DNA of 64,000 bases from Candidatus Acidulodesulfobacterium ferriphilum (GTDB taxonomy: Bacteria; SZUA-79; Acidulodesulfobacterales; Acidulodesulfobacteraceae). The position numbers and the translations under genes are program-made. Of the stretch, positions 30,763-50,082 are shown in pieces. The notes beneath the pieces were generated by a model. It worked only from the letters and a program-made list of their open reading frames with translations. It was not told the origin of the DNA and searched no databases. Positions within the stretch are counted from its first letter, which is position 1; the number at the start of each line of letters is the position of its first letter. Location: assembly GCA_004195035.1 (NCBI GenBank), contig SGBD01000004.1:162969-226968 (forward strand). The letters are read 5' to 3'.

Positions 30763-31674
30763 TTATATGAAATTTTTAGATTTAAGATACTCTATCGATT
30801 TTATTAAATCCTTTTCAGACCTGTTTTCTATAATTAAAGAACCGCCGAATTTTTTATCTTTAAGATAATGAAAAAATTCATCGACTCTTAAAATACCGTC
30901 TCCCAACGCACGGTGTTCTTTTCTTACGGTTATTCTTAAGCCCTGTCTTTCCAAAACCATGTCCTGGATATGAATTTCGCTTATGTTTTCGAGCTTAAAC
31001 TTTTCTATAAATTCGAGGGGCATAAACCCGCTTAATCCCCAGTGTCCTATATCGAAACATATCGAAATATTGTATTCTTTGACTATGGGATATAGATAAT
31101 CGAACGGAAAAACTTCAAGATTTTCCAACGCAAACATGCAGGGATTAAGACCTGTTTTTTTCAATATATCGGACATACTTTTCCTTGCCTGATTTATAGC
31201 GCTAACGATAAGCGCCTTTTTATCTTCTTCCCCGATAGGAAAAAACATTATAGAATCCTCAAACTCGGAGGTTAAATGAAGAACAAATCTTCCAACGCTT
31301 ATGTTTAATGCCTCTAATTCCCGGCAGGCATTTATAACCCTGATTATATAATCTACGGAAAGTTTTCTGTATTCTTCAAGGAGGCTTGACGGATTAAGTT
31401 GTAAATAAGGAAGGTGTACCGAAACCGATTTAATATTCGCTTTAACATCCGAAGATTTTATGATGGGTGCGATTATTTTTCCTAAAAATCCGGGGGATAA
31501 CTGCTCGATTTCGGTGTTTATCTCGACAGCTTGTATGTGGTACTCATTTAAAAGTTTAAAATATCGGTTAAATCTTAATTCTAAAGCGCGGGGATCATTA
31601 TTTCCTATAAGTCCGAACCCTATTCCAAAAAATGAATCGGTATTTACGCCAAAACAAAGATTGCCGTTATTCAC
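30763..31674 (-). CDS. Xylose isomerase-like TIM-barrel protein
   Basis: 303 aa. Resembles AP endonuclease family 2 / sugar-phosphate isomerase-epimerase proteins. Likely metal ligands are E in FALENLEVFP, D and H in CFDIGHWG, H in EIHIQDM and E in LIIENRS. Reaction and substrate cannot be given. It is coupled to an MFS gene, which suggests handling of an imported carbohydrate-like compound. Confidence 0.75.
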   Translation of the reverse strand: MNNGNLCFGVNTDSFFGIGFGLIGNNDPRALELRFNRYFKLLNEYHIQAVEINTEIEQLSPGFLGKIIAPIIKSSDVKANIKSVSVHLPYLQLNPSSLLEEYRKLSVDYIIRVINACRELEALNISVGRFVLHLTSEFEDSIMFFPIGEEDKKALIVSAINQARKSMSDILKKTGLNPCMFALENLEVFPFDYLYPIVKEYNISICFDIGHWGLSGFMPLEFIEKFKLENISEIHIQDMVLERQGLRITVRKEHRALGDGILRVDEFFHYLKDKKFGGSLIIENRSEKDLIKSIEYLKSKNFI

Positions 31675-33723: not shown

Positions 33724-33792
33724 AAATTTTTTGAAATATGAATATAAACAATTTGAATTTAATTTATTTTAATTTATTGTATCAAATGAATA

Positions 33793-33829
33793 TTACAAAA
33801 TTATTACAGTTATATTAAATTTTTGTTAC
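33793..33829 (-). promoter_or_regulatory. Pho-box-like array upstream of tonB
   Basis: TTAC or TTAA occurs at 33793, 33804, 33815 and 33826, exactly 11 bp apart. On the minus strand, the direction of tonB, this includes CTGTAATAATT followed by TTGTAATATTC, close to the E. coli PhoB unit CTGTCATAWAW. Confidence 0.7.
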
Positions 33830-33834
33830 AATTT

Positions 33835-33884
33835 AAAAAAGTTTCCGCAAAAGCCGTTATATGGTTATATCCGGCTTCTGCGGA
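33835..33884 (-). terminator. Terminator of the first TonB-dependent receptor gene
   Basis: On the minus strand TCCGCAGAAGCCG pairs with CGGCTTTTGCGGA (one mismatch in 13) and is followed within 4 bases by TTTTTT. It lies 55 bp after the receptor stop codon. Confidence 0.8.
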
Positions 33885-33938
33885 CAAATATTAACCCGTT
33901 TAACTCATTAAAAACATCAAATAATTTAGATCTTAAGC

Positions 33939-36392
33939 TTAAAATTTAAATGATGTCGTCACATAATAGAATCTGGGCATGCCGGGCAAATATTCGGCAT
34001 AAATGGCGTTTGAATTTGGGTATGTGCTGACAAATCCAGGGATTGCGCCGGTAAGATACTGTCTGTTTAAAATATTGTCAATGGATAGGCTGAGTTTCAT
34101 ACCTTTAAGGCCAGCTTCTTTTAATATGCCCATTTTTTTAAAGTTGAAATAGTGGCTAAGATTTAAATTAAACAGCCAGTAACCGCCAAGGTGGAACGCG
34201 CTTGTAGGATTTCCGTTTATGTCTTCTACGAACTGCTCGCCCGTGTATGTCCCCCACAACCTTGCGTCTATATTATAATAGTTTTCGTCAACGCCGATAT
34301 TTGCAAGATGCCTCGGTATAAACGGAACATTTTCACCCGGTAAAACATTTCCTGCCGGACCTGAATAGGTAGAAGTAAACTTTCCGGTATTTAACGAATA
34401 GTTTGCAAAAACATTCAGATGGCGGTTAAAATCATATTGTCCCTCAAGCTGTAAACCCTCATACCGCGACCTGCCGCCGTTTGTCTCATAGGTAACTTCC
34501 GTTGCGGTATTTAAATATGTACCGAATGTATTGGAAAAGTCTTCTTTATACACATTTGCCGAAAGTTCGAGATTATCTAATCTGTACCTCGTTCCAAGTT
34601 CGTAATCGGTAACATATTCGGGCTTTATTCCGCTTAAAGATGTGGTAAAGTTAGTTCCGTTATAAGAAGTCAGCACGGATTCGTAAGCGGTATAATTTGG
34701 AGCTTTCATCGTCCTTCCGTAAGTTGCGTAAAAATTCCAGTTTGGAAGTAGATTATAGCTTAAACCAATCGTGGGTTCTATTTCGGTAAATGTATCCGAT
34801 ACCGTCCCGCCGTACGGATAAAGGGACGGCCATGTTTCGTTTGTTGCAACGCTCATATCCACTATTTGATATTTAACGCCAGGCTCGATAAATAACTTAT
34901 CGGGAATAATGTCCACCCTGTCTTGCGCATAGACCGCATCCATATTCTCCGTACCGTGTTCATTATCGGCAATATTGTAAAAAGGCGCGACAGGCCCGTA
35001 ACTTTCTCCGTAAAACGACTCTATTTTGTGATATCTTCCGAAAAGGAATTGTCCGCCGAGCGTAAGCACATTTCTCGGAAATCTAACGGTAACCGAGGGA
35101 ATATCGCCGAACTGGCTTACATTCACGGCTTTATAATGGTTATCTGTTCCGTAAGCAAATCCGGGAGTAAAGCCGTTTGCAATTGCCGTAGCGCTATTTT
35201 GACCGTCAAGAAACTGCGGGTCTGGATTATAAGTAGCGGTGGGAACAGGCGTTAACGACCAGTTTCCACTTCCGAAACTTAAAGAATAAGGCTGCACGCC
35301 GTTAATATAAATGCTCGAAGGTATATCGCATGACGCCGTGCTGATTCCAGCGCTGGCGGCACTTGTATGGCATGCCGGGTTTACATAAAGATTTTTTGCC
35401 ATATTTTCATTAAAGTAAAAACTCTTATTGTCAAAGGTAAGATCTCTGTTTATATAAGCCTTCCAACCAAGTATGGCGTAATACTCCTGATTGTAAGCCT
35501 GCGCATTTTCGACGGAAGTCGGCCATCCCCAGCTATAGCCGAACTGATCAAGCAGCGGTACGGGAACGAGGTGCGGGTCGTTTGCGTAATCGTCATTTCT
35601 CATAAATATGAACGAAATATGCGATCTGTTGTTATTATACGGCTTAATAAGGGACATATAATATGAATGGAGCCTGTTGGGGTAAGCTGAACCGTCATAC
35701 CAGTTGTTCGCGTCGTCTCTTGATACCTTCAAATACATTCTGATTCCTTCCCAGAGCTTGCCTGTATTCAAAGCAAAACCGTAAGTCCTTGTGGCAAAAG
35801 AACCGTAGCCTCCGAATATCTTGGCGTAAAATTTGCTGGTCGGCATCAATGGTTCATAGTTTATCGTGCCGCCAAGGGAGTCAAAGGAATCAATACTTGG
35901 ATTATTCACGCCGTAATAAATCCCGACCCCGGAAATATCGCCGAGCGTAAACGGAACGTTGTTCCTAACATCCATATAATTGGAAGAATCGCCGTCAAAC
36001 ATGTTGTTAATCGGCACGCCGTCAAAGGTCTGTGCAACCTCGCCTGTGCCAAAGCCCCTTAATTCGACGCGCGAACGGATATTATTAGGACCGCTGGTAC
36101 TTGCGTGTATGGAAGGCGCTTGATTTAATATCGTCTCGAAGGAGTTCATAGGCGATTTTGTTGCCTCGATAGCCCTCTTTTTAATCTTCGATACTGTAAA
36201 AGGCGTCCTTTTCACTTTCTTAGCTTTTTTCTCGGCTTTTAAAACGATTACTTTGGCATTTGCCTTAGACGGGGCATAAAATGCAGCAAATACCGACAGG
36301 GCAATAAACAGGATTAGTTTAAATTCAGTCCTGTTTAACCCTATCCCCAAACCAATCTTTCTTAACTTACCATCAGGAACTTTCAATTTCAT
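33939..36392 (-). CDS. TonB-dependent receptor 1
   Basis: 817 aa outer-membrane receptor. A signal peptide (about 20-46) precedes a plug domain (about 70-200; IRSRVELRGFGTGEVAQTFD) and a 22-strand-type barrel ending FYYVTTSFKF with terminal Phe. It has an AAGGAGA ribosome site. A seven-site Pho-box-like array lies about 250 bp upstream. The ligand is not evident from sequence; the shared array with phosphoesterase genes suggests phosphate esters or their products, though siderophores or cobamides remain possible. Confidence 0.88.
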   Translation of the reverse strand: MKLKVPDGKLRKIGLGIGLNRTEFKLILFIALSVFAAFYAPSKANAKVIVLKAEKKAKKVKRTPFTVSKIKKRAIEATKSPMNSFETILNQAPSIHASTSGPNNIRSRVELRGFGTGEVAQTFDGVPINNMFDGDSSNYMDVRNNVPFTLGDISGVGIYYGVNNPSIDSFDSLGGTINYEPLMPTSKFYAKIFGGYGSFATRTYGFALNTGKLWEGIRMYLKVSRDDANNWYDGSAYPNRLHSYYMSLIKPYNNNRSHISFIFMRNDDYANDPHLVPVPLLDQFGYSWGWPTSVENAQAYNQEYYAILGWKAYINRDLTFDNKSFYFNENMAKNLYVNPACHTSAASAGISTASCDIPSSIYINGVQPYSLSFGSGNWSLTPVPTATYNPDPQFLDGQNSATAIANGFTPGFAYGTDNHYKAVNVSQFGDIPSVTVRFPRNVLTLGGQFLFGRYHKIESFYGESYGPVAPFYNIADNEHGTENMDAVYAQDRVDIIPDKLFIEPGVKYQIVDMSVATNETWPSLYPYGGTVSDTFTEIEPTIGLSYNLLPNWNFYATYGRTMKAPNYTAYESVLTSYNGTNFTTSLSGIKPEYVTDYELGTRYRLDNLELSANVYKEDFSNTFGTYLNTATEVTYETNGGRSRYEGLQLEGQYDFNRHLNVFANYSLNTGKFTSTYSGPAGNVLPGENVPFIPRHLANIGVDENYYNIDARLWGTYTGEQFVEDINGNPTSAFHLGGYWLFNLNLSHYFNFKKMGILKEAGLKGMKLSLSIDNILNRQYLTGAIPGFVSTYPNSNAIYAEYLPGMPRFYYVTTSFKF

Positions 36393-36639
36393 TTCTTTTC
36401 TCCTTTTTTGTTTTTGTTATTATTTTAAGATGTGATACTAATTATTCTTTAGAATTAATAAAAAAATGATAATGATAACCGAATTTGCATTTTTATAAAT
36501 TTATCTTAAAATAATAAAATTCCGTAATTGAATAATTGAATTAAGGCTATTAACGGTTAAATTAAGGTGATTAAAAAAAATAAAAACTTGAAATTTAACT
36601 GGATTTTTACTTGCCGTTAATTATATTAACAAATGAATG

Positions 36640-36708
36640 TTACAGAATTATTACGACTTAGCTAAGGTTTTGTTGAATTTTATTACGGTTTTATTACAGT
36701 TTTGTTAC
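36640..36708 (-). promoter_or_regulatory. Pho-box-like array upstream of receptor 1
   Basis: TTAC-like units (TTAC, CTAA, TTGA) begin at 36640, 36651, 36662, 36673, 36683, 36694 and 36705, with steps of 11, 11, 11, 10, 11, 11. On the minus strand it contains CTGTAATAAAA then CCGTAATAAAA in direct succession. It fills most of the informative part of the 369-bp gap before the receptor gene. Confidence 0.75.
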
Positions 36709-36722
36709 CGATTTAACAAAAG

Positions 36723-36752
36723 CCTCCAAGTCCTTTAAGGAGGACTTGGAGG
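36723..36752 (-). terminator. Terminator of receptor 2
   Basis: CCTCCAAGTCCT and AGGACTTGGAGG make a perfect 12-bp stem with a 6-bp loop, 10 bp after the receptor 2 stop codon on the minus strand. It is followed by CTTTTGTT. It may also insulate the array beyond it. Confidence 0.8.
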
Positions 36753-36761
36753 GTGAAAAAA

Positions 36762-39209
36762 TTAAAACTTTAATGTCATCGTTACATAAGCCGCTATCGG
36801 CATTCCGGGGTATGCTAAAACCGACCCTGCGCTATTTCCTCCGAAGTAGCCGCCGGCAGTGATATACTCATATTCGTTATATTTACGGTTTAACAGGTTT
36901 AAAACCGTGAGCTTAATAACCGCCGCTTTCGGCAAGCCGGCATGCCTGCCGCCAAACGGGATTTTGGCGCTTACCGAAGCATTTAAAACATTAAAGCTTG
37001 GAATCGTTTGACCCGACGGCGCCCCCGTAACATCATCCATAATATACTGTTTACCCGTGTATATATCCCATATTTTTGGGGAATAGGTAATACGGTTGAT
37101 TGAGATGTTATAATACGCGCCTAAATTAAATGTCTCTTCCGGCACATACGGAACATTATCTCCGTTATAATTACCCCCGCCTGTAATGTATGTAGAATAC
37201 ACTGCTTTTTCATAGTTTATATTTGTGAAAAGATGAAGATTATCTATGGGATTGTCGGATGCCGTTAGGTTCACGCCGTCATAATTGGAGGCGCCGGATG
37301 CGTAAATAGATGTCCCGTCAGCCAGGGTGTAGGACAACAGCTGGTTTGAGAAATGCTCATGATAATAATTAACATTTAGAACAAAATTGTTTAATAAATT
37401 ATCGTGATGAACCAAAACCTTAAAACCTGCTGTGTAATATTGATTTTTTTCAGGTTCCAAGGCATTAGCGCCTATCTGCTGAAAGGGTCCTCCGCCTCCG
37501 CCTAAATGAGGATTTTGATAGGCGTCCGAGTAATTTCCGTAAATAGCTGTATTTTTAGTTAATTTATAATTAACGCCCAGCGAAGGTTCAAGTTTTTCAA
37601 AATAAGTCGAAGCGTCAGGCGCTTGAGGTCCGTTGTGTCCCTGTATTGTATCGTCATTACCGTAAGGATTTAACAGAACCGCTTCAGGATAATATTGCGA
37701 AGCATTATTATAAAAGTTTGTTTTAAAGGTAACAAAGTTCAAGCCCGGAGTTATCTTTAACCTTTTAAAAAAATGAAGCGTATCCTGAACGAATGCGGAC
37801 CCAAAGGTTTGATAAAAATCGCTGTATCTATAAGCGCAAGGATTTGTAATGGTTGTAACTTCACTTAGGCCGCTCGGCTGGGCAGTGCAATATGTTCCGA
37901 AAGGATTATAAAACGCGTTTCTCGATATATAATGACTTTTTAGAAACCAGCCGCCGAATTTAATCAGGTTATGAGGAGCGTTTATATCAAAATATGTCCT
38001 ATCCCCGTAAACTTCGTCTTCGGGATTATTATATTCATACAAATTTCCGGCGCCTTGCGAAAAATCGTTTTGGTGGTAATGGAGCCTTTCCCCTTCCCTG
38101 TACCAAACTAAATTATGAAATGAAACAGATTTTGAAACCTTGAGATTAATCGGCGAATAAATTAAATACATATGATTCCTGGCAAGCTTATTCCATACAT
38201 CAAAGGCTAAGGAGCTGTAATAGCCGGTTGTTTGCTGTGAGAAATATGGTCCCGGCACGCTGTTTCCATCTGGATAATAGCCGTTAACCGTTACTCCTTG
38301 ATTTCCGTTGCCGGGGTATATCGGACTTTCCGGTATAAAAGTCGGCCTGTAGCCCTGCGAATGGGCAATGTATGCGCCTAATCCAATGTTTCCGTTAGAA
38401 AATACTTTAACTACTTTTCCGTAATACGCATAGTCGGCAGCCTGGTTATAAAACCCAAAACCTGTTCTATAACTGTTTGAACTTGTAATACCTCCGGCAA
38501 GAACGGCGGAATAACCGCCAATCATCCCTGTTTTTATATTAAAATTTACATTTTTAGTATTAAAACTGCCGTAAGTAAAACTTAAAGAACCTTCGGGCTT
38601 AAGCGAAGGCTGTAAGGGGATAAAACCCAATGTTCCGCCGAGGGCATTATACCACCTATTTGCAGGATTTCCGGGACCGTAAACGACATTGATTCCAGAA
38701 ATTAACGACATCTCCGGCATTAAAGCGGTGGACCATAAGCCTGACCCGGGATTACCCATCGGAACGCCGTCGAATGTTACCGCAATGCTCCCGTCATCGG
38801 TTTCTCCTATTAATCCGCCCCATCCCTGTTGAATTCCGTTGATGCTGAAACTTCCTCTGCTCGCCCCTGTCGGACCGTATGTTTCACTTCTAACCCCGGG
38901 TATTATGGATAAGGCTTGCGTTGCGCCACCGACGGGGGGTGTTGCCTTAAGTTCGGCCTTACCCACGATTAATTTGCTCTGGGTCGATTTAAAAATTTCC
39001 TCTTTGGTGAATTTTAAATCCGTCTTTTTTAATTCTTTTTCTTCTTCGGTAAGAATTTTTTTCAGGTAAGTAGATGAAATTTCGCCAAGATAAACGGGCT
39101 TTTTAGAAGCGTCATTGCCTGAAGCAAATGCGGAAGGCAAAGAAAAAAGGGGGGAAATAATCTGGATAAAAATTGGTAAAACAATAAAAAGGTAAACTCT
39201 TTTTTTCAT
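36762..39209 (-). CDS. TonB-dependent receptor 2
   Basis: 815 aa. A signal peptide (cleavage near FASGND, about 30) is followed by a plug (about 85-210; LKATPPVGGATQALSIIPGV, GGTLGFIPLQPS) and a barrel ending AAYVTMTLKF. It is paralogous to receptor 3: both share the GGTLxFIPxQP segment and a similar ending. The start follows a strong AGGAGG. A Pho-box-like array lies about 100 bp upstream. The ligand is unknown. Confidence 0.88.
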   Translation of the reverse strand: MKKRVYLFIVLPIFIQIISPLFSLPSAFASGNDASKKPVYLGEISSTYLKKILTEEEKELKKTDLKFTKEEIFKSTQSKLIVGKAELKATPPVGGATQALSIIPGVRSETYGPTGASRGSFSINGIQQGWGGLIGETDDGSIAVTFDGVPMGNPGSGLWSTALMPEMSLISGINVVYGPGNPANRWYNALGGTLGFIPLQPSLKPEGSLSFTYGSFNTKNVNFNIKTGMIGGYSAVLAGGITSSNSYRTGFGFYNQAADYAYYGKVVKVFSNGNIGLGAYIAHSQGYRPTFIPESPIYPGNGNQGVTVNGYYPDGNSVPGPYFSQQTTGYYSSLAFDVWNKLARNHMYLIYSPINLKVSKSVSFHNLVWYREGERLHYHQNDFSQGAGNLYEYNNPEDEVYGDRTYFDINAPHNLIKFGGWFLKSHYISRNAFYNPFGTYCTAQPSGLSEVTTITNPCAYRYSDFYQTFGSAFVQDTLHFFKRLKITPGLNFVTFKTNFYNNASQYYPEAVLLNPYGNDDTIQGHNGPQAPDASTYFEKLEPSLGVNYKLTKNTAIYGNYSDAYQNPHLGGGGGPFQQIGANALEPEKNQYYTAGFKVLVHHDNLLNNFVLNVNYYHEHFSNQLLSYTLADGTSIYASGASNYDGVNLTASDNPIDNLHLFTNINYEKAVYSTYITGGGNYNGDNVPYVPEETFNLGAYYNISINRITYSPKIWDIYTGKQYIMDDVTGAPSGQTIPSFNVLNASVSAKIPFGGRHAGLPKAAVIKLTVLNLLNRKYNEYEYITAGGYFGGNSAGSVLAYPGMPIAAYVTMTLKF

Positions 39210-39306
39210 AAATCCTCCTGTAAGGCAAGGTTTTTTGTTTTTAATAAACCGTTTGTTTTAAAAACGGGTATTAATTAATTTGCGGAGTTATTTTAACAAA
39301 TGGATG

Positions 39307-39374
39307 TTACAAGATTATTACGACAAGGTTAAATTTTTGTTAAAATTATGTTACTATTTATTGCCGTTTGTTGC
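39307..39374 (-). promoter_or_regulatory. Pho-box-like array upstream of receptor 2
   Basis: TTAC or TTAA begins at 39307, 39318, 39329, 39340 and 39351 (11-bp steps), followed by TTGC at 39361 and 39371. The block ATGTTACA...ATTATTACGAC at its start matches the array of receptor 1 closely. It lies in the 348-bp gap between receptor 2 and the plus-strand Uma2 gene and could act on either. Confidence 0.7.
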
Positions 39375-39557
39375 AGTTTTGTAATAATTGAATTTTACTA
39401 TTTATATTAATTTATATTTGTAAAGAGGCTTTATTATGGTAAAATATAAACATACAAGGCAAATATGCTTCGATTACTTATCGTAAACGGTTTTTAGGTT
39501 TAATTTAAGTTTAATTTGCATTAAATTTTAATTATTTATTTTTAGGGGTTTTTCTTT

Positions 39558-40163
39558 ATGCCGCGTTCATCCTTATTAGAAAAATTCGAAGAAACATATC
39601 CTATAGGTTTGCCCAAAAAATACACCGCAAAGGACTATTTCAAGCTTCCCGAAGGAAGCCCCTATCAATTAATCGAAGGAGAACTGATAATGACGCCGTC
39701 CCCGTTTACGGAGCATCAAGCCATATCAAGAAATTTAGGAATGATAATAGCTAATCATGTTAAGAAAAATAAATTAGGTTATGTTTACTATGCCCCCATA
39801 GATGTCTATCTCGATAACAGAAATGCTTACCAGCCCGACATAATATTCATCTCGAATAAAAATAGGGATATAATCAAAAAAACCGGCATAGATGGAAGCC
39901 CCGATCTTGTTGTCGAAATACTCTCCCAATCAAACGCATATTACGATAAAAAAGTTAAAAAAGAGGTCTATGAAAGAAGCGGGGTTACAGAGTATATAAT
40001 CATAGACCCAAAGGCGAAAAACATAAACATACTTCGAAGAACGACGGGGGATTCCAAGAAATTCGACGAAATCTTATCGGTTAAATATAAAGATAAGGCT
40101 ATACCTGATATTAAAACATTAGACTTAAAAATAAATTTAGGGGATATATTTACGGAAATTTAA
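39558..40163 (+). CDS. Uma2-family PD-(D/E)xK nuclease-like protein
   Basis: 201 aa. The Uma2/DUF820 core reads YQLIEGELIMTPSP, YQPDIIFISN, DLVVEILSQSN and YIIIDPKAKNI, with the D...ExL-type acidic residues of the restriction-endonuclease-like fold. Its cellular role is unknown; the family is abundant in cyanobacteria and other mobile-rich genomes. It is the only plus-strand gene within the receptor region. Confidence 0.85.
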   Translation: MPRSSLLEKFEETYPIGLPKKYTAKDYFKLPEGSPYQLIEGELIMTPSPFTEHQAISRNLGMIIANHVKKNKLGYVYYAPIDVYLDNRNAYQPDIIFISNKNRDIIKKTGIDGSPDLVVEILSQSNAYYDKKVKKEVYERSGVTEYIIIDPKAKNINILRRTTGDSKKFDEILSVKYKDKAIPDIKTLDLKINLGDIFTEI

Positions 40164-40257
40164 ACGGTCTCAATTATAATCAAAAAAAAACAGTTAATTC
40201 CTTGGTAAACCAATCATGTTAACACCCCCCTTTAAAGTTAAAATTTAATCTAAAAAA

Positions 40258-41400
40258 TTAATCCGGGTTAACCCCTGCTAATATACCACCCACAGGACTA
40301 TGCCGCTTTTTTGCCATATCTTTAATATATCGCATCACTTTTTTATATGATTTTAAACCCTTTGACGCGACCCATTCCTGTTTAAACTGTTCCGGTCCAG
40401 GTACTTTAAAGAGCGAAACGGGGATATATTGCTCGTTTTTTGGAATGGGAATACCCGCATTTCCGTTTATGTTTGCATCCGCGTTTGAGGAGGACTTCGG
40501 TTGTAAGCCGTCTTTTACTCCAGTTCGCCGCACGACATTTTTAACGCCGTTTGAAGTTTTAGACCCTGTTTTTAAGGGTATTTCCCACTCTCCCTTTTTT
40601 CCTATCTTGCGCCTTATCTTGTCAACCCTGTTTCTGCATATTCCCGGATTTAATGCAGGTTTTACCCTCATCGGCATAATATTATAAGGCGTCATATCCG
40701 GCTTATCGGTAAATCCGTTTCTAATAACGGCGGCGTTTGCATCCCACTGGGACATGGGCGGCAATTTAAAGATTGTCTCTATGGTTCTTAAGATGTTTAT
40801 CTGGGAATAACGGCGGGCGATTATTGCTCCTTTTTTTACATAAGGTCCAATCATTAATGCAAATGTTCTGTGCGCATTTATATGGTCTGCGCCGGATTGG
40901 GCGTCATCTTCGGTGATAAATACGAGAGTATTTTTCCAGACAGGCGAACGGCTTAAATAATTTATAATCTCGCCGGTTGCGTAATCGTTGTTTGCGACAT
41001 AGTAATCGGGTGTATAATAGCAGGGTTTTTGCCCCGCCGTATGGTCGTCGGGAAGCCATATATAAACAAACTGCGGAAACTTACCCTCTTTAATTCTTTT
41101 TTTTGCGAAGTTTAAAAAAACCTTAGCCCTTGCAGTGTCTAAAATAAATCTATCCCAGCCGTATGATTTAAGGTCTATATGCTTTTTCATGGCGGCCGAT
41201 ATATCGCCTATTCTGTTGCGGGACACAAACTCCCCGAAGTCTTCAAAAGAAACGTTATGTTTGAGCATATCGTTAAATATGTATAAATTTTGCGGGTATG
41301 CTATCCATGGATTCGACCAGTGTTTCAACGCTTTTAGGCTATCGTAAATCGGCATATATTTATGGCGCGAATTAATATTAATTTTCTTTAAATCCTGCGT
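40258..41400 (-). pseudogene. C-terminal part of a PF04185-type phosphoesterase, after an in-frame TGA
   Basis: This is the same reading frame as the preceding N-terminal part, resuming after TGA at 41401-41403. Fifteen codons (TQDLKKININSRHKY) lead to the first ATG at 41355. It contains the second half of the phosphoesterase domain: FVYIWLPDDHTAG, VFITEDDAQSGADHINAHR and SQINILRTIETIFKL, with likely metal-binding D and H residues. The rest is a basic tail. The sequence shows no decay apart from the one stop, so readthrough, a very recent nonsense change or a base-call error are all possible. Confidence 0.75.
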
Positions 41401-43236
41401 TCATCCAGGATTTCCGACGAGCCCCCTGCCGGAATAGTATTCCGGCCATGTCCTTTGAACAAAATCCGAATCCGATGCTCCCGTCGTCCACTCATGCCCC
41501 TGCGCCGTAACCTCGCCGTCAGCCATAAAGTTTACGAATAGCGCATAATTATCAGCCAGCTTATAAGCGTTCGGAAGCTCTTTTTTATTATATAAATCAA
41601 GATGCGGGTCTGCCCATGCGCCTGCCCTTTTATAATCGCCAAAGTCCTCGTCGAATGTTTTGTTTTCCCTTAAAATAAATACGACATATTTTATATGCGA
41701 TCTTAAAAATTTGGCTATCTTACTATTTTGAGCCTCCAATGTTAACCTTTGGGACAATAAAAAACCGTTATTCTTTAAAGACCTGTATGTTAAATATTTA
41801 ATATGTTTAAAAGCATAATTAAGGTTTACCTTTTGCACAACGCCGTCCATAAAATCCCCAATCCACTGGTAATAAATGTTGGGACCGCTGCCTAAACCCT
41901 TGGCATTGACAATATATATAGAATTTTTAGATGATGCAACGGCGGTTGGATACCATGCAGCAGGGATAAGCCCCGTTCTTTTTCCGCTTTTCAGATTATA
42001 AATTGCAATATCGTTATTTCCTGCATTTGCGACATATATTTTATTATCCTTAAAGGCAATGCCGTCAGGATAACTCCCGGGAGGAGCATTATTATAAGGG
42101 GCATCGTTAATTACCTTAACAACCTTTAAGGTTTTTGAGTTAATTTCATAAATATAATCGTTATTGGAATCCGCAATTAAAACATAAGGGGTGCCTTTAA
42201 TATCGGTAATGGCTGTAGGATGAACGCCTGCGCCATAGCTGTCTTTCGTTAATCTTTTACCCGTATAAACAAACCCTGACTTTTTCATTGTAATTGGATT
42301 TATAACCGTAACGCCGTTTGTTCCCCAATCGCTTACGACAAGCCTTTTATCGTTATCCGAAAGGCTTAAGGCAAATGGGTAAGGTCCCGCATTTACATAA
42401 GCGGTTTTTCCCGTAATCAAATCAATCCTTGCAACAGAGTTAGATAAAAGGCCTGAAGTATATAAATATTTTCCGTTTTTAGAGACGGCAATAAAATCGG
42501 GATAAAAAAGATAAGGTTTTTTAAATTGATGGCCCTGGTACTGATAAGGATATTGGTTTTTCGGAAACGGTTGGTATTTTAAAGCGTATTTTTTAACGAC
42601 GATAAGTTTATTTTTTATAAGTTTTAAAGCGACAATATCGTTGACTCCGCCGCCTGCGGCATAAATAATGCCGTTTGGCGCAAAGGCAAGCCCCTGAAAG
42701 AGGTCCTGATTTTTATTCCTTGCATATGAAAACCGCGCCATTGTTTTATTTATGCTTGCGCTTTTAGCCTGTTTGGGATTATATACAACAAAGTTAGGGT
42801 GTTTAAACTTTTTTAGCCTTCTTTCCTTATAAGCCCTGTACTGAGCGATTTTACTAAGCGTATGCTTATTATAAACCGTTACGCTCTGATAAAACGTAGC
42901 ACCGTTTGCCAAAACGGCTACAAGATTATGCCATACGGCAACATTCGTCGCAAAATTAGGCGTGCCGTTTATAAGACCGAAAGGGGTTATTTTTCTGCCG
43001 GTCGGAAGGGTATGTTCCACAATTCTCAAGTTTTTCAAATAAACCCTGATAGGGCTTAATATATTCTTATCATTAAATAAACCTCTTTTCTTAACGGCAA
43101 CAATCGTATTATTATCGGTTATCTTGGTTGCAAAAGAAGGACTTATAAAAATGAAAATAATAAAAAAATCTATTAATAAGATAAATAAGAAATATAATCT
43201 CCCTATGTTCATAATATTTAAAACCCAGTTTCTCAT
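41401..43236 (-). CDS. Exported beta-propeller phosphoesterase, N-terminal part
   Basis: A signal peptide is followed by a YVTN-type beta-propeller (about 75-530; GKYLYTSGLLSNSVARID, NKIYVANAGNNDIAIYN) and the start of a PF04185-like phosphoesterase (KYVVFILRENKTFDEDFGDY, GHEWTTGASDSDF). It ends at TGA after GLVGNPG, and the same frame continues as the C-terminal part. I place the start at ATG 43236, giving a hydrophobic leader ending SPSFA, 4 bp after the TPR gene; an upstream extension would overlap that gene. Substrate is likely a phosphate ester in the periplasm or outside. No ribosome site is obvious. Confidence 0.8.
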   Translation of the reverse strand: MRNWVLNIMNIGRLYFLFILLIDFFIIFIFISPSFATKITDNNTIVAVKKRGLFNDKNILSPIRVYLKNLRIVEHTLPTGRKITPFGLINGTPNFATNVAVWHNLVAVLANGATFYQSVTVYNKHTLSKIAQYRAYKERRLKKFKHPNFVVYNPKQAKSASINKTMARFSYARNKNQDLFQGLAFAPNGIIYAAGGGVNDIVALKLIKNKLIVVKKYALKYQPFPKNQYPYQYQGHQFKKPYLFYPDFIAVSKNGKYLYTSGLLSNSVARIDLITGKTAYVNAGPYPFALSLSDNDKRLVVSDWGTNGVTVINPITMKKSGFVYTGKRLTKDSYGAGVHPTAITDIKGTPYVLIADSNNDYIYEINSKTLKVVKVINDAPYNNAPPGSYPDGIAFKDNKIYVANAGNNDIAIYNLKSGKRTGLIPAAWYPTAVASSKNSIYIVNAKGLGSGPNIYYQWIGDFMDGVVQKVNLNYAFKHIKYLTYRSLKNNGFLLSQRLTLEAQNSKIAKFLRSHIKYVVFILRENKTFDEDFGDYKRAGAWADPHLDLYNKKELPNAYKLADNYALFVNFMADGEVTAQGHEWTTGASDSDFVQRTWPEYYSGRGLVGNPG

Positions 43237-43240
43237 AAAA

Positions 43241-44023
43241 TTATTTAAAAAGATTTTTGGAAATTTGTTTAATATGATTCGTTTCTTTATGTTTCTTATA
43301 ATATATATCTTTTTTAACCAAATTAACCGCATTTTGAAAAAGTTTGCTTTTCGGATTAAGCTTATAAGCAGTCTTAAGGTCTTGTAATGACAGCTCAAGT
43401 TCACCTATGCTATATTCGGCTCTTCCCTTTATAAAATAAGCATACGAATTTTTAGAATTATTCTTAATGACATTATTGGAGTAATATAATGCCTTTTTAA
43501 AGTGGTTCGGCTTGGAATTTTCGTATCCCATTGCCGTATTAAGCATTAAAATGTCAGATAGATGCCTGTCGTTTGCATACTTAAGTCCCTTTTTGTATAA
43601 CATAATGGCATAATTAATTTTGCCGGATTTTAACAAATTATTTCCCCTTAGAAGATAATTTAAAGCAATGCTATTTTTTACGGAATCTATAAATTTACCG
43701 GTGTTTTTGTTATTTTTATTGAGTTTTAAAATCGAAGCCAGAGATTTTTTATAGTAATGCGTGCTTAACTTATACTCTTTTAAAAATTGAAGAACATTGG
43801 CGGCAAGTTCGTATGTTTCTGGATTCTTACTTTCCCTTAAAGCCTCTTTGGATATTTTTAAAGCGGAATTATACTTTTTATTTTTAAGCAAGCCTACCGC
43901 CTTGTTATAATCCGCCTGCCATTTTAAAAGCGCGTAAGATGTATTGACGCTAAAAGGAATACCCGCCATAATAATGAATAAATTAAATAAGATATAAATA
44001 AACAAATTTTTTTTAAATTTCAT
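43241..44023 (-). CDS. Exported TPR-repeat protein
   Basis: 260 aa. A signal peptide (about 1-30) precedes at least four to five tetratricopeptide repeats, for example LKNKKYNSALKISKEALRES and LDLSMLNTAM-like helices around KPNHFKKALYYSNNVIKN. TPRs make protein contacts in the periplasm. It lies between receptor 3 and the beta-propeller phosphoesterase and may link them; the phosphoesterase ATG follows its stop by 4 bp. Confidence 0.8.
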   Translation of the reverse strand: MKFKKNLFIYILFNLFIIMAGIPFSVNTSYALLKWQADYNKAVGLLKNKKYNSALKISKEALRESKNPETYELAANVLQFLKEYKLSTHYYKKSLASILKLNKNNKNTGKFIDSVKNSIALNYLLRGNNLLKSGKINYAIMLYKKGLKYANDRHLSDILMLNTAMGYENSKPNHFKKALYYSNNVIKNNSKNSYAYFIKGRAEYSIGELELSLQDLKTAYKLNPKSKLFQNAVNLVKKDIYYKKHKETNHIKQISKNLFK

Positions 44024-44078
44024 TTAAACCCCCTTTGAATTTAATTCCCGGTTTTTCTATAGCCCATATTTTTATTAC

Positions 44079-44124
44079 AAAAAGTATATATGTGGGAAAT
44101 CATAGCGGTTCCCCACATATACTT
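44079..44124 (-). terminator. Hairpin between receptor 3 and the TPR gene
   Basis: AAGTATATATGTGGG pairs with CCCACATATACTT, one 2-bp bulge, and on the minus strand is followed by TTTTTG. It should lower expression of the downstream TPR-phosphoesterase genes relative to the receptor. Confidence 0.7.
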
Positions 44125-44217
44125 GCTTTAACTGCTATAGAGAGAGGATAGAGATAAAGCCGAAGACTTAATTATTTATTATTTATTAAAGTTAAAACTT
44201 CTATGGCGCGATAACTA

Positions 44218-46584
44218 TTAAAACTTAAAATTAGCGGTTAAATAAAAAGTTCTCGGCGCTCCAGGATCAGCCAATATTGCACCAGCGCTTTCTCCTGTGC
44301 TTCCACCGAAATATGCACCGCTTGTAATATATTCAAAAGCATTGTACTGATGGTTAAATAGATTTAAAATGGAAAAATCTATGCCTAAAGTTTTAATATC
44401 CTGCTTTTTAAAGGCATGGGTCGTAAATTTGATTCCGGCGTTTGCTACATTATAACTTGGCATGGTTTGATTAGTCGGGGCGCCTGTCAAATTATTAAAC
44501 ATATATTCTTTGCCGTTATAAATATCCCAAAACTTCGGGGTTAAAGAAAAATTATAATTTCTAAATGGTATCTTATAAGAAAGACCTAAGTTAAAAGTCA
44601 AATCAGGAACATTTGATACAGGGAGATTATCATAATTTTCTTGATTAACGCCCGAAACATAACTGGTATAGTTTGTATGCAACATTTCAAGATTTGAATA
44701 AAGATGAAGATTTTTAACCGGATTATCTAATAAAGAAATATCGACACCGTTATAATTTGCGGATGCGTAAGCAAAATAAGTCGTATATACTGTGTTTACC
44801 AATATTGTCAAGGGGATAGCTTCATGTCCTAAATGATAAGTAAAATAGGTTGCGTTAAATACAAAATGATGTAAAAAATTAATATTGGATTTATTCAACA
44901 AAATTTTAAATCCTGCTTCATAATCCGTATCACGAATTCCCGAAACGCTTCCCGGATTGGCTGCGGCAGCAGAACTTGCAAGACCGACCGGATTTTGGAC
45001 GGTTTGAGAATAATTTCCATATAATCTAAGATAAGGAAAAAGTTGATAGCTTGCCCCTAAGGACGGCTCAGTTCCGAAAATCTGCCTTGAAAAACTGTAT
45101 GCGCTTGTTCCTGCAGCCGGGTCATTATAACTGGTAAATATATTGTGATAACCGACCCAGTCTAAGCCGGGTATAACCGTTAATTTGCCAAGATGAATCC
45201 CGTCTTGAATAAAGGTCGAAAATCCGGTTTCGGAATATCTATCATATTGAGTGCCAAACCATATAGGATTCCATGTTGCATATATATAATAGCCCCCAAA
45301 TTTTACATCGTTATACGGCAAATTTAATTTAAAAGTGAGCCTGTTCCCATAGTTATTGGAATAAGGGCTCCAGTCTTCGGAGGACGGCGCTCCGGGAATA
45401 TAATTATTTACCCTTAAATGCAAGCGGTATCCATGCCTGAACCACGGCATATCAGAAAATGTCAGGTTTGGAGATAACTGCAAATTCAATTTAGAATATG
45501 CCAATAAAATCTGGGTCTTAACTAATTTATACCACATATTATAAGGCAATGAGGAATAATAACCGGATGTTTGCTCGCTGTATAGGGGGGCGCCGCTCGC
45601 ATTTAAACCCTGTGTAGTAACTCCTTGAACGGGGGAAACAGGAATGAAATTTGGACGATAAGCCGAACTTCTTGCGGCGTAAGCCCCAAAGCTTAAAGAA
45701 CCGTTATTTAATGTTTTTATCGCCTTAGCAAAGAAAGCATACGAATGGGAAGGAGCATTAAAACTGCCCGTCCTGAAAGTATTTTCCCTGACATATCCGC
45801 CTGAAAAAATAAAATCCCAACCATTCGTCAAACCGGAACTTAAAGTAAAATTAGTATAATAAGTATTATAACTGCCCGTTCCAAGACTTATTTCTGCGGA
45901 AGGTTTTACCGTCGGTTGAACCGGTATAAAGTTTAGAGTTCCTCCTATACTGCCATACCACCGATTATAAGGATTTCCCGGACCGTAAATTACATTTATA
46001 CCTTCAATCATTGAAAGTATAGGAATCATGTTAGGCTGCCATGCGTTTCTCACATAATCGGTCATAGGAACTCCGTCAAATAAAACCATTACTTCATGAC
46101 GGGCAATAGACCCGCTGGCAGAACCCCATCCTTGTGAAAGCCCCCGCACATATACTTGACTCCTGTCCGACGGATTATTGCCGCCGTATGATCTTACGGA
46201 AACCCCGGGAGCCATTTGCAAAGCTTGAGCGGCATTGCCTACACCGGCATTTTCAATCTCATTTTTATTAATCACAACCTCCGATTGTGTTGATTTAAAT
46301 ATCTCCTTATTCGAGATAACCTTAATCTCTTTTTTTTCATAAGAAAGAAGTCTTCTAACGCCTGAAGAAGTTACAACGCCCAAACTTATTACGCCGTTAG
46401 AATTTTGTTGAGCAAACGCAAAGTTGCTCCGGCCTGCTATAAATAACAAAAATAAAGCCGCCAGGATTAATTTAAAATTCTTACCCTCCCCTCCCCTTTC
46501 ATTCCGGTTTTTCTTTTTACTTCGCGGTTCATTATCTCTTCTCCTAATAAGAATTTTTAGAAAATTAACGATTTTACCTTTCAT
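44218..46584 (-). CDS. TonB-dependent receptor 3
   Basis: 788 aa. After a charged N-terminus a signal segment (about 37-58) leads to the plug (about 95-215; ALQMAPGVSVRSYGG, GGTLNFIPVQPT) and a barrel ending FYLTANFKF. It is a close paralogue of receptor 2 in domain order and motif. The start has an AGGAGG site. A seven-site Pho-box-like array lies about 100 bp upstream. It heads a receptor-TPR-phosphoesterase run, which suggests that the receptor imports what the phosphoesterase releases. Confidence 0.88.
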   Translation of the reverse strand: MKGKIVNFLKILIRRRDNEPRSKKKNRNERGGEGKNFKLILAALFLLFIAGRSNFAFAQQNSNGVISLGVVTSSGVRRLLSYEKKEIKVISNKEIFKSTQSEVVINKNEIENAGVGNAAQALQMAPGVSVRSYGGNNPSDRSQVYVRGLSQGWGSASGSIARHEVMVLFDGVPMTDYVRNAWQPNMIPILSMIEGINVIYGPGNPYNRWYGSIGGTLNFIPVQPTVKPSAEISLGTGSYNTYYTNFTLSSGLTNGWDFIFSGGYVRENTFRTGSFNAPSHSYAFFAKAIKTLNNGSLSFGAYAARSSAYRPNFIPVSPVQGVTTQGLNASGAPLYSEQTSGYYSSLPYNMWYKLVKTQILLAYSKLNLQLSPNLTFSDMPWFRHGYRLHLRVNNYIPGAPSSEDWSPYSNNYGNRLTFKLNLPYNDVKFGGYYIYATWNPIWFGTQYDRYSETGFSTFIQDGIHLGKLTVIPGLDWVGYHNIFTSYNDPAAGTSAYSFSRQIFGTEPSLGASYQLFPYLRLYGNYSQTVQNPVGLASSAAAANPGSVSGIRDTDYEAGFKILLNKSNINFLHHFVFNATYFTYHLGHEAIPLTILVNTVYTTYFAYASANYNGVDISLLDNPVKNLHLYSNLEMLHTNYTSYVSGVNQENYDNLPVSNVPDLTFNLGLSYKIPFRNYNFSLTPKFWDIYNGKEYMFNNLTGAPTNQTMPSYNVANAGIKFTTHAFKKQDIKTLGIDFSILNLFNHQYNAFEYITSGAYFGGSTGESAGAILADPGAPRTFYLTANFKF

Positions 46585-46687
46585 TTCTTATCCTCCTAAA
46601 AAATAAGATTATGTCTTTCGTTTAATTTTAATTTTTAAATAAATTTGCTTTTAAAATTTAATTGAGACATAGTTTATCAAACTAATG

Positions 46688-46756
46688 TTACGCTATTATT
46701 ACGATTGCGTTAAATTATTATTAATATTTGTTGCAAATTTGTTGCGATAATGTTAC
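46688..46756 (-). promoter_or_regulatory. Pho-box-like array upstream of receptor 3
   Basis: TTAC, TTAA or TTGC begins at 46688, 46699, 46710, 46721, 46731, 46742 and 46753: steps of 11, 11, 11, 10, 11, 11, the same rhythm as the array of receptor 1. Confidence 0.75.
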
Positions 46757-46774
46757 GGATGTAACATTTAACCC

Positions 46775-46876
46775 AAAATTGCCGATAGAGATTTTTAAAT
46801 ATATCGCAATACATTAAAAACACTGGATTCCCGCTTTTGCGGGAATCCAGAAAAAGAAATTTCTATCGGCAATTTT
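46775..46876. repeat. Nested inverted repeat, MITE-like
   Basis: Outer arms AAAATTGCCGATAGA (46775-46789) and TCTATCGGCAATTTT (46862-46876) are perfect 15-bp inverted repeats. Inside, CTGGATTCCCGC (46823-46834) and GCGGGAATCCAG (46839-46850) form a perfect 12-bp stem with loop TTTT. The 102-bp unit has no coding capacity. The inner stem resembles widespread bacterial palindromic repeats, so this may be one repeat nested in another. Confidence 0.6.
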
Positions 46877-47068
46877 CAGATTTAATTTAATCATTGACTT
46901 ATTTAAAAATCTTATTTAAAGATATTATTAAATAACCGAAAATATGGCATAATAAGCCATAACGATATTTATAAAATTTATTTATTTGTGACATAAATCA
47001 ATGAATTCATTTTAATAAAAGTTTAAATTTAAATTAGCGCAAAAAGGCATAAAACAAGCGGAGGATAA

Positions 47069-47641
47069 ATGGAAACGATAAACGATATCATTTTAAATTA
47101 CTTGTCTTCCTTCAGCGATACCCGTAACGGCGGCAGATCGGTTAAATCTTTTTTGGAATCTTGGCTCTGCCTTACTTTAATCGCTCAAATAAACATCAAT
47201 AAACACTCCTATAAAAACAAAAACGATAAAGATAAATTAGAGTTTTTATTTAAAGACTTTAAGGCTAATATTGCCGCCATATTGAACGATAAGGATAATA
47301 TAGCAAAACTTAAAAATATCCTTGATATCGTGGAATCGGGCTGTCCGATATTAATAACAAAGTTTGACGATATTAAGGAAACGATGAGCAAAGCCGAAGG
47401 TATCGGAGATTTAAAAGAAAAAGAGCTTGATTATTTTATGGATTGCACCGTAAGTCTAATCCATCTGGGCAAAAATAAACTGTTTAAATCCTTCAGTCTG
47501 GATTCTTTAGCCGAAGATTACAGCAACTTTGATATTATATTTTGCGAAAATGCGTCTATATTAATATATAATATCATCAAAGCCGTTATTGCTCCCTCCG
47601 TTCAGACATTCCGAATATCCCCAAAAGGCTCGGAAGCATAA
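47069..47641 (+). CDS. Hypothetical protein, 190 aa
   Basis: Predicted soluble and mainly helical, no signal peptide, no recognised family. Two Cys-containing stretches (LESWLCLTLIAQ, YFMDCTVSLIHLG) do not form an obvious metal motif. It has a strong GGAGG ribosome site 5 bp before ATG, and codon use resembles its neighbours, so it is very likely expressed. It stands alone on the plus strand between receptor 3 and a convergent lipoprotein gene. Confidence 0.7.
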   Translation: METINDIILNYLSSFSDTRNGGRSVKSFLESWLCLTLIAQININKHSYKNKNDKDKLEFLFKDFKANIAAILNDKDNIAKLKNILDIVESGCPILITKFDDIKETMSKAEGIGDLKEKELDYFMDCTVSLIHLGKNKLFKSFSLDSLAEDYSNFDIIFCENASILIYNIIKAVIAPSVQTFRISPKGSEA

Positions 47642-47688
47642 TCACGAAATTAACTATGACGGATAAGTTTATACGCCCCGCCCCTAAC

Positions 47689-48120
47689 CTAATACCGCCA
47701 ATAAGGACATGGACATATCCACGGACCGAACGGGGGACCAAAATACCACTGCCGGTTATACCACAACCATCTGCGCCTTGCGCCCCTGATTGCGGCCCGC
47801 TCCTCTCTCGCCCTTATCCCTGTTTTAAGCATATAGTTCAGCACATTTGGGCAAACCCCCTGCTTATGCAGTTTTATTATTTCGCCTGCATTAAGGTAAA
47901 ATATCTCACCGCTTGCCCTTAACCTGTCAATTATTTCTTTTTGGGGAACATGATTTTTACACATCGATACAATCTGAGTGATAGAAAGGGGAGGCGGGGT
48001 AGGCTTTGTTACGGCGGCGCAACCGGAAACGGCTATACCTGTTATAAAAATTAAACTAACTATTAACGGCAGTTTTTTAAAATTCTTCCATGCCGCGTTT
48101 CCTGCCCGTTTCTTTTTCAT
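47689..48120 (-). CDS. Lipoprotein of unknown function
   Basis: 143 aa. A signal peptide with lipobox VSGC places the mature Cys at about residue 31 (GIAVSGCAAVTKP). The mature part has a short conserved-looking domain (ITQIVSMCKNHVPQKEIIDRL) and an Arg/Trp/Pro-rich end, PPFGPWICPCPYWRY. I prefer ATG 48120, 8 bp after GGAGGG, over an upstream TTG. The first bases overlap the preceding gene by 44 bp. It resembles small lipoproteins with an anti-sigma-like repeat but no firm family is recognised. Confidence 0.7.
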   Translation of the reverse strand: MKKKRAGNAAWKNFKKLPLIVSLIFITGIAVSGCAAVTKPTPPPLSITQIVSMCKNHVPQKEIIDRLRASGEIFYLNAGEIIKLHKQGVCPNVLNYMLKTGIRAREERAAIRGARRRWLWYNRQWYFGPPFGPWICPCPYWRY

Positions 48121-48568
48121 CCCCTGTTCCCTCCTCTTCAAACCATTCTTTATCTTCCATTCCTTCTTCTTCGACTTCTTCCCTAATTTCTTCTTCGGAT
48201 TCCTGTCCCTTTTCTTCCTCTTGCTCCTCTTCCAAATCCTTTAAATCGGACAATAAGTTTGATGCGGTATTGTAATATTCCTCAAATCTTTCCGAATTAT
48301 CCGTGCCCAAAGAAGCCTCCAACAGTTTAATAATACTTTCAGCAAGATCAATATTTACTTGAATTTCTTCACTGTCTTTAATTATGAGTTTGCATTTGGC
48401 GGTATAAAGCTCCAGATGCTTTACGGCAATCTGGAGGTCTATCGCAATTTTTTTCTTAATCCTTTTTTTATAACTTTCGTCCATTTTCTTTTCATCTAAA
48501 ATCGCTTTTAAGATAAGTTCCGTTTTTTTTAGTAATTCAATGCCGCTTTCCTCTACATATAAATCCAT
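48077..48568 (-). CDS. Acidic hypothetical protein
   Basis: 163 aa. Residues 1-110 are helical with regular heptad-like spacing; the last 50 residues are a low-complexity tail dominated by Glu (EEEQEEEKGQESEEE). No signal peptide or family is recognised. It has a GGAGG ribosome site at 8 bp. Its 3' end overlaps the lipoprotein start by 44 bp, so the two are translationally linked. Confidence 0.6.
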   Translation of the reverse strand: MDLYVEESGIELLKKTELILKAILDEKKMDESYKKRIKKKIAIDLQIAVKHLELYTAKCKLIIKDSEEIQVNIDLAESIIKLLEASLGTDNSERFEEYYNTASNLLSDLKDLEEEQEEEKGQESEEEIREEVEEEGMEDKEWFEEEGTGDEKETGRKRGMEEF

Positions 48569-48650
48569 AATAATATCCTCCGTTTTATTTTTATTCTTAC
48601 TTTTTTACATCTTTTCATATCTTTTTCATATCTTTATAAAAACATTTAAC

Positions 48651-49841
48651 TTATGAAAGAAAGGTATCCTCGAACCCGTTTGCGTACCTGTCCCTGTCCG
48701 TCAGCGGATCAAGCCCCCATAGGTTTTCTACATATTTAAGTATCGAGGCATGCTCATGTCTGACATTCGAGATATATCCTTTTTTAACGAACGGAGAGAT
48801 AATTATGCATCCCACCCTCATTCCAAGCCCGTAGTAATCGACAACGGGGGGTACGACATGGTCGTAAAACCCGCCGCATTCGTCCCAGTTTAAAAATATT
48901 GCCGATTTCGAAAACAGACGGCTTTTTCTTAAAGCTTCAATCCGTTTTACGGTATAAAGCATGCCTGTTTTAACATCTGCCGGCGGATGCTCGGAATTTT
49001 TAAAATCCGGAACAAGCCAGCTGAACTTAGGGAGCATCCCCTTTTTTATATCCTCGAAATACTCATGGGCCGGCCTGATTTTATTCCATAACCTTTTATC
49101 TTTCATAAAACTTTCGAACCATATAACGGGAACCCAGTGGTGAACATACTTTTTTGGATTCGGCCAGCCTTCTACATATATTTTCCACGATATTTTTGCT
49201 TTTTCAAGCCTGTTGAATATCGTGGGAAACTCGTAAGGTTTTCTTGGAGGAGCGTCGGTTATATGTCCGTTTGACTGCCCCGCAATCTGATAAAGCCTGT
49301 TTGGCTGGGTCGGAGCCATAATGGAATGAAAATAGTTCTGGCATAGCGCGAAGCTGGAAGCGTATAAATAATAAGGGTATAAAGCCTTTTTAGTATCGTA
49401 ATAGCCCATTATAACCTTATAATCGTCAACCGGCTGATTTATCCCGTTTAAGAAATACCCGTCCATCCTGCCGTTATTGTATATCGTATGAAGGCCTTCC
49501 CATGAATGGTTGGGGTCAACGCGGTCGGGGGTTACATAATTAAAACCTAAATCGTAGGGCTTAATGCTTCCGCCCATGCCGTTGGTTATTCCAAGCTCTA
49601 AGACTCTTTCGGGCTGTCCGTTTATCGTTTTATCCATCATGCCGAAATAGTGGTCGAAACTCCTATTTTCCTGCATTATTAAGACGATATGTTCCGGCTT
49701 TTTAAATTTATTTTTAGCTAAACCGGCGGCGGAACTTACGCTATTGCCTAAAGCATCCGCATCTTTAAGCCCAAAACCGCCTAAAGCCAACCCGCCTAAA
49801 AAACCTAATCCCGTTAATTTTATAAAGTCTCTTCTGTTCAT
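48651..49841 (-). CDS. Tat-exported phosphoesterase (phospholipase C / acid phosphatase family)
   Basis: 396 aa. A twin-arginine leader (MNRRDFIKLTGLGFLGGLAL) indicates export in folded form. The PF04185 domain follows: HIVLIMQENRSFDHYFGMM with the metal-binding E-N pair, SIMAPTQPNRLYQIAG, and FLNWDECGGFYDHVVPP near residue 310, where D and H bind metal. It hydrolyses phosphodiesters or monoesters such as phospholipid head groups. A good AGGAGG-like site precedes the ATG. A Pho-box-like array about 110 bp upstream supports phosphate-starvation control. Confidence 0.88.
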   Translation of the reverse strand: MNRRDFIKLTGLGFLGGLALGGFGLKDADALGNSVSSAAGLAKNKFKKPEHIVLIMQENRSFDHYFGMMDKTINGQPERVLELGITNGMGGSIKPYDLGFNYVTPDRVDPNHSWEGLHTIYNNGRMDGYFLNGINQPVDDYKVIMGYYDTKKALYPYYLYASSFALCQNYFHSIMAPTQPNRLYQIAGQSNGHITDAPPRKPYEFPTIFNRLEKAKISWKIYVEGWPNPKKYVHHWVPVIWFESFMKDKRLWNKIRPAHEYFEDIKKGMLPKFSWLVPDFKNSEHPPADVKTGMLYTVKRIEALRKSRLFSKSAIFLNWDECGGFYDHVVPPVVDYYGLGMRVGCIIISPFVKKGYISNVRHEHASILKYVENLWGLDPLTDRDRYANGFEDTFLS

Positions 49842-49948
49842 ATTTCCTCCGCTATAAAAGGTTAAAACCGTCAGGTCAAAATCGTTCTTAAAAGCAACAA
49901 TAAAACAACAATTTAGATTAGTATAACACCGCGGGCATCGATTTTTTA

Positions 49949-49995
49949 TTACAATTCTGTTAAATTTTTGTTAATTTTTATTACACTTTTGTTAC
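49949..49995. promoter_or_regulatory. Pho-box-like array between the phosphatase gene and kup
   Basis: TTAC or TTAA begins at 49949, 49960, 49971, 49981 and 49992, in 11- and 10-bp steps. It lies between divergent genes, 108 bp from the phosphatase start and about 90 bp from kup, and could act on either. Confidence 0.65.
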
Positions 49996-50082
49996 ATTTT
50001 CGTAATAATTTTAGTGTATAATGATATCCTGTATTTTTTTTAAAAAATAATATAACTATTACTTCATTTTAATTTTAAATTT

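Follow-up and report, generated by a model that had tools for sequence, protein, structure and literature searches.

Multi-site operators of predicted PhoB type upstream of the TonB receptor genes of Candidatus Acidulodesulfobacterium ferriphilum

In a 64,000-nucleotide stretch of DNA from Candidatus Acidulodesulfobacterium ferriphilum (the window), five tandem arrays of 11-bp half-sites precede a tonB-exbB-exbD operon, three TonB-dependent receptor genes and the gene of an exported phosphoesterase. Judged from their sequence, these arrays are very probably PhoB operators (Pho boxes) of sigma70-type promoters, and the genes behind them would form part of a Pho regulon. An operator of the same sequence and geometry was found at phosphate transport genes of the genome, and it was conserved among the relatives. 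The host is a little-studied acid-mine bacterium of SZUA-79, the candidate phylum that holds Ca. Acidulodesulfobacterales from acid mine drainage (PMC10591310). The window is part of contig C4 of its genome (1.87 Mb, 97% complete). Both a defined Pho regulon and the exact form of its operator would thereby become available for this uncultured acid-mine lineage.

The arrays and their promoter geometry

An earlier note on this DNA had described five phased TTAC arrays of four to seven half-sites at 11- or 10-bp steps, and all of them were found in their places. The five arrays (w1 to w5) lie on the minus (gene) strand, with 4, 7, 7, 7 and 5 half-sites and steps of 11 bp, sometimes 10. Array w1 (33788..33831, minus strand) consists of the four half-sites TTGTAACAAAA ATTTAATATAA CTGTAATAATT TTGTAATATTC at steps 11-11-11 upstream of tonB-exbB-exbD, and its -10 hexamer TACAAT (33776..33781, minus strand) lies 6 nt past the last half-site. 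The three seven-site arrays precede the receptor genes: w2 (36635..36710) stands upstream of receptor A, w3 (39302..39376) upstream of receptor B and w4 (46683..46758) upstream of receptor C, with the minus-strand -10 hexamers TAATAT (36623..36628), TAAAAT (39290..39295) and TAAACT (46671..46676), respectively. One unit of w2 (36657-36667, CCTTAGCTAAG) is degenerate. The steps of w3, counted upstream from the promoter, are 11-11-11-11-10-10, and an eighth unit is possible. The rhythm 11-11-11-10-11-11 is common to w2 and w4, and the block ATGTTAC...ATTATTACGA, common to w2, w3 and w4, corresponds to the two half-sites nearest the -10; both features had been pointed out before and were recovered here. 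The downstream genes also agree with the earlier description: they encode TonB, ExbB and ExbD, the three receptors and an exported phosphatase, which belongs to the PF04185 phosphoesterases and has a twin-arginine translocation (Tat) motif.

The fifth array, w5 (49944..49997, minus strand), has five half-sites at steps 11-11-10-11 upstream of the Tat phosphoesterase gene and is divergent from kup. The distance from the start of its last half-site to the -10 hexamer TATACT (49920..49925, minus strand) is 29 nt (18 + 11), both here and in the relative G002, where the spacer sequence differs. Compared with w1 to w4, the operator is thus displaced from the -10 by one further 11-bp repeat. On the kup side (49998-50030), a lone half-site TCGTAATAATT is followed by 6 nt and then TATAAT. 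At this spacing, w5 may also reach the promoter of the divergent kup gene.

Arrays of the same sequence and geometry were found upstream of pstS, pstCAB-phoU and a symporter-like gene, all outside the window. The genes pstS (TIGR00975), pstC, pstA, pstB and phoU were assigned at scores exceeding the curated cut-offs, and the top NCBIfam model of the symporter-like gene was a phosphate:H+ symporter at a score below the cut-off (318 of 610). The pstS operator reads TTGTAACAAAA ATTTAACAAAA CTGTAATAAAA CTGTAACATTA-ATTTGC-TATTAT, and near-identical operators stand at pstC and the symporter gene. In w1 to w4 and at the pst promoters, a 6-nt spacer separates the last half-site from the -10 hexamer. 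The layout matches that of Escherichia coli MG1655 at phoA (CTGTCATAAAG TTGTCACGGCC-GAGACT-TATAGT) and at pstS (CTGTCATAAAA CTGTCATATTC-CTTACA-TATAAC). Arrays also lie upstream of pst genes in four relatives (G002, G005, G006 and G007), and in relatives they precede tonB-exbBD or phosphoesterase genes as well. The placement of arrays at phosphate genes, here and in the relatives, agrees with the Pho regulon that the earlier note had proposed.

The arrays were compared with chance using an 11-bp unit matrix trained on 12 half-sites from the three sites outside the window. Scored as chains of four units, all five window arrays were recovered, at 25.9-42.9 bits. The maximum in ten Markov strands (475 kb) was 18.2 bits, and fourteen random stretches of the same genome (20 kb each) peaked at 16.6 bits. 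With the same matrix, none of 2000 dinucleotide shuffles per region reached the observed score (z 5.5-8.2), and 20 bits was not attained in any of 8780 shuffled upstream regions. The bare pair pattern GTAAYN6GTAAY was mildly enriched (30 matches versus 21 for the reversed control), which indicates that the signal is carried by the array and not by the pair. All five arrays are genuine and greatly exceed chance expectation.

The motif was also general within the family, that is, the candidate phylum SZUA-79 with Ca. Acidulodesulfobacterales. A 58-nt sequence model was searched in 19 family genomes and 11 outgroup genomes, and the operator was present in every family genome (19/19) and in no outgroup (0/11). 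The sequence logo of 93 family promoters, which is partly circular because the selecting model includes the window sites, reads WTKTAACAAAA at half-site 4, ATTTAACATAA at half-site 3, YTGTMATAAWA at half-site 2 and YTGTAAYATTM at half-site 1, followed by NTTTGN and a TATAAT-like hexamer. Half-site 3 is usually ATTTAAC. The typical operator has four half-sites, with up to seven. Arrays of 30-39 bits without the -10 geometry were seen at ssb and at a DNA methylase gene (L036, L035).

The receptors and their cargo

The genome encodes three Plug-domain receptors, all inside the window and each with an array upstream: receptor A (33939..36392, 817 amino acids), receptor B (36762..39209, 815 amino acids) and receptor C (44218..46584, 788 amino acids), all on the minus strand. 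Across the family, an array of at least 20 bits lay within 500 bp of 29 of 32 receptor genes, compared with 16 of 524 genes of other kinds. The Fisher p of about 1e-33 is nominal, since sequences from relatives are not independent of one another, and many of the stretches counted in relatives had been chosen for holding receptors or model matches. Since nearly every receptor stands on a multi-site operator of predicted PhoB type, we lean slightly towards the view that TonB transport in this candidate phylum is almost wholly under the phosphate-starvation response. The receptors published as siderophore importers would then be phosphorus-scavenging receptors in acid mine water, possibly taking up Fe(III)-bound phosphate, and their reading would shift from iron to phosphorus.

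The cargo is likely to be phosphate esters. The secreted genes linked to the receptors are phosphoesterases, which points to ester substrates. One of them is the Tat-exported PF04185 protein behind w5 (48651..49841, minus strand), a phosphoesterase of phospholipase C / acid phosphatase type with the Tat motif RRDFIK at its N-terminus. An alternative is that the receptors are Pho-regulated but import Fe(III)-phosphate or ferric chelates, freeing phosphate from iron minerals. Barrels resembling siderophore receptors on Pho operators would fit such a role, as would the acid-mine habitat, in which iron co-precipitates with phosphate (PMC6776010). The linked phosphoesterases argue against it, and we regard it as rather unlikely. 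Only the substrate is at issue in this alternative, which can be true even if the arrays are PhoB operators. In the earlier proposal of phosphate-ester scavenging through TonB receptors, the Pho control was supported, while the ester substrate is plausible.

Iron control of the receptors appeared very improbable. Tan et al. (2019) called the receptors of this order Fe(III) siderophore transporters (PMC6776010), a reading that rested on annotation, and the arrays would then have to be sites of an iron regulator. The best NCBIfam matches of the receptors are indeed siderophore-receptor families, and among solved structures FecA is the nearest. However, the family scores did not attain the curated cut-offs (126.6 of 223.5 bits), and the arrays are direct 11-bp repeats of the same kind as those at the pst genes. 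A weak Fur-like stretch occurs in the receptor A leader (36462, 5/19 mismatches), but comparable stretches occur elsewhere in the window, some of them inside genes, and no convincing Fur box was found at the window promoters. No Fur-family protein (PF01475) was detected in the 97% complete genome, which also counts against iron control; this argument is limited to the present genome, because 15 of the 19 family genomes searched encode such a protein. Cobalamin control was considered as well and rejected, as an Rfam scan of the window returned two tRNAs only and no cobalamin riboswitch. An iron or cobalamin regulator, which the earlier note had named as the competing possibility, is accordingly a weak candidate.

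The regulator and comparison with known systems

Only one Trans_reg_C (OmpR/PhoB-type) protein was found in the whole genome. Its phospho-acceptor Asp, its active-site Lys and its recognition helix RTVDVHIRRLR are all identical to those of E. coli PhoB, the helix holding residues with which the E. coli protein contacts DNA. Many OmpR-family regulators bind direct repeats at steps of about 10-11 bp, but it is very improbable that another, non-phosphate member of this family owns the arrays and happens to share the pst genes, given the PhoB-identical recognition helix of the sole Trans_reg_C protein and a regulon core of Pst, PhoU, phosphate transport and phosphoesterases.

Under the preferred assignment to PhoB, phosphate scarcity would lead to phosphorylation of this lone PhoB-type response regulator, which would then bind the 11-bp half-sites head-to-tail. 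The promoter-adjacent half-site would replace the -35 element and recruit RNA polymerase to the -10 hexamer that follows after 6 nt, and the additional upstream half-sites would lengthen the row of PhoB molecules. The genes turned on at low phosphate would comprise those of the Pst importer, the phosphate symporter, the TonB-ExbB-ExbD energiser, all three receptors and the exported phosphoesterase, and the receptors would be used for phosphorus-containing substrates.

Several observations weigh against this assignment. The top NCBIfam family of the regulator is PhoB, at 251.7 bits and so below the equivalog cut-off of 296.2. The best PhoR candidate (C1:440273) matched PnpS/PhoR best, though below the cut-off (222 of 334.2), and it is unlinked to phoB in the genome. 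Neither phoB nor this phoR candidate carries an array, unlike E. coli phoB, where PhoB sites have been reported (PMC10294691). Among the relatives, a receptor in G019 (L203) had no array, and the upstream region of a receptor in G005 (C26, L158) could not be judged because the gene lies at a contig edge. Two of the three array-less receptor genes come after an array-driven gene in the same direction; the third is the G019 gene.

The E. coli system provides the closest comparison. Its Pho boxes at pstS and phoA share the 11-bp head-to-tail half-sites, a consensus close to CTGTMATAWAW and the identical -10 spacing, and its PhoB regulon likewise includes the Pst system and a PhoB with the identical recognition helix. 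The geometry of the E. coli operator thus seems to be valid in a distant phylum as well. However, the E. coli Pho box has two half-sites, whereas the operators here typically have four and up to seven, and phoB here is without an array. Long tandem arrays had been called unusual in the earlier note. Their length was confirmed, but the difference is one of degree, because operators of three or more repeats also occur at E. coli ugp and in Streptomyces, where complex PhoP operators combine at least three 11-nt direct repeats that differ in strength (PMC4415409, PMC7866108). Unlike the operators here, those of Streptomyces PhoP have the consensus GTTCACC and belong to high-GC Gram-positive bacteria without an outer membrane.

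Phosphate control of TonB-dependent transport has been described in other groups. In Caulobacter crescentus, several TonB-dependent receptors, Pst and enzymes that release phosphate are under PhoB control (PMC11208175); in the present genome all three receptors and, in addition, the TonB-ExbB-ExbD operon stand on putative Pho operators. The PusCD proteins of Flavobacterium are outer-membrane TonB-dependent transporters that are induced by phosphate depletion and linked to phosphomono- and diesterases (PMC8115612), but they belong to a different phylum, and no SusD-like partner was seen in the window loci. In the set of papers that was searched for PhoB together with ExbB, no earlier case of a Pho-controlled TonB-ExbB-ExbD operon came up. 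What is new here is the organism group, the long operators of four to seven sites in a fixed pattern, the inclusion of the TonB-ExbB-ExbD operon and the near-complete capture of the receptors.

Neighbouring genes and further arrays

Behind w1, all on the minus strand, lie tonB (PF03544, 32998..33723), exbB (PF01618, 32239..32922) and exbD (PF02472, 31760..32164). An AP_endonuc_2 TIM-barrel protein (30763..31674) and an MFS transporter (Sugar_tr, 29547..30755) probably belong to the same operon. Neither TonB nor ExbB is confined to the window: the genome holds three TonB and four ExbB family matches. Downstream of receptor C, a TPR protein (43241..44023, minus strand) is conserved. A gene encoding a beta-propeller and a PF04185 phosphoesterase (40258..43404, minus strand) is split into two open reading frames (41401-43404 and 40258-41355) that share a frame and are separated by an in-frame stop. 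In relatives it encodes a single protein of 944-1012 amino acids, and the split reflects either decay or an assembly error.

Further arrays precede genes of the family that encode other proteins. Two small basic proteins of 70 and 83 amino acids, 41% identical, each stand behind a Pho-type promoter (L003:3356-3568; L039:9375-9626; C2 of the present genome, G000). Their family occurs in 16 of the 19 family genomes and in none of the 11 outgroups, and most copies retain a box of at least two half-sites with the correct -10 spacing. These conserved small proteins are new and appear to be part of the phosphate response. A 52-bit array (L129:5972-7017; C1, about 661 kb) precedes the genes of a 113-residue protein that bears two Cys-pair motifs and of a LigT-type phosphoesterase, and homologues of the former have arrays of their own in G018 (L201:4063) and G023 (L207:7483). 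A 49-bit array (L131:5437-6732; C2, about 79 kb) lies before a 431-residue protein that lacks an evident signal peptide and contains the HNH-like stretch IQVHHITQLQDGGKENVKNYIAL. Adjoining the symporter gene is a PHP-domain phosphoesterase gene that has its own array in G004 and G006 (L037:10766-11494; L139:5492; L143:6690).

In G006, a relative in which no TonB receptors were detected, a strong array precedes a 527-residue signal-peptide protein with no family match (L138:4929-6512). It resembles an outer-membrane barrel and is perhaps a phosphate porin. An array of six to seven units with a well-spaced TATATT (L038:8500-8590; C5, about 25.5 kb) is aimed into the 3' end of an opposite-strand metH-like gene, and an antisense transcript is possible there. 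Weaker arrays of 32 bits (L130:6217 and L132:5857) stand before paralogous coiled-coil proteins of 122 and 165 amino acids, which are probably membrane-anchored.

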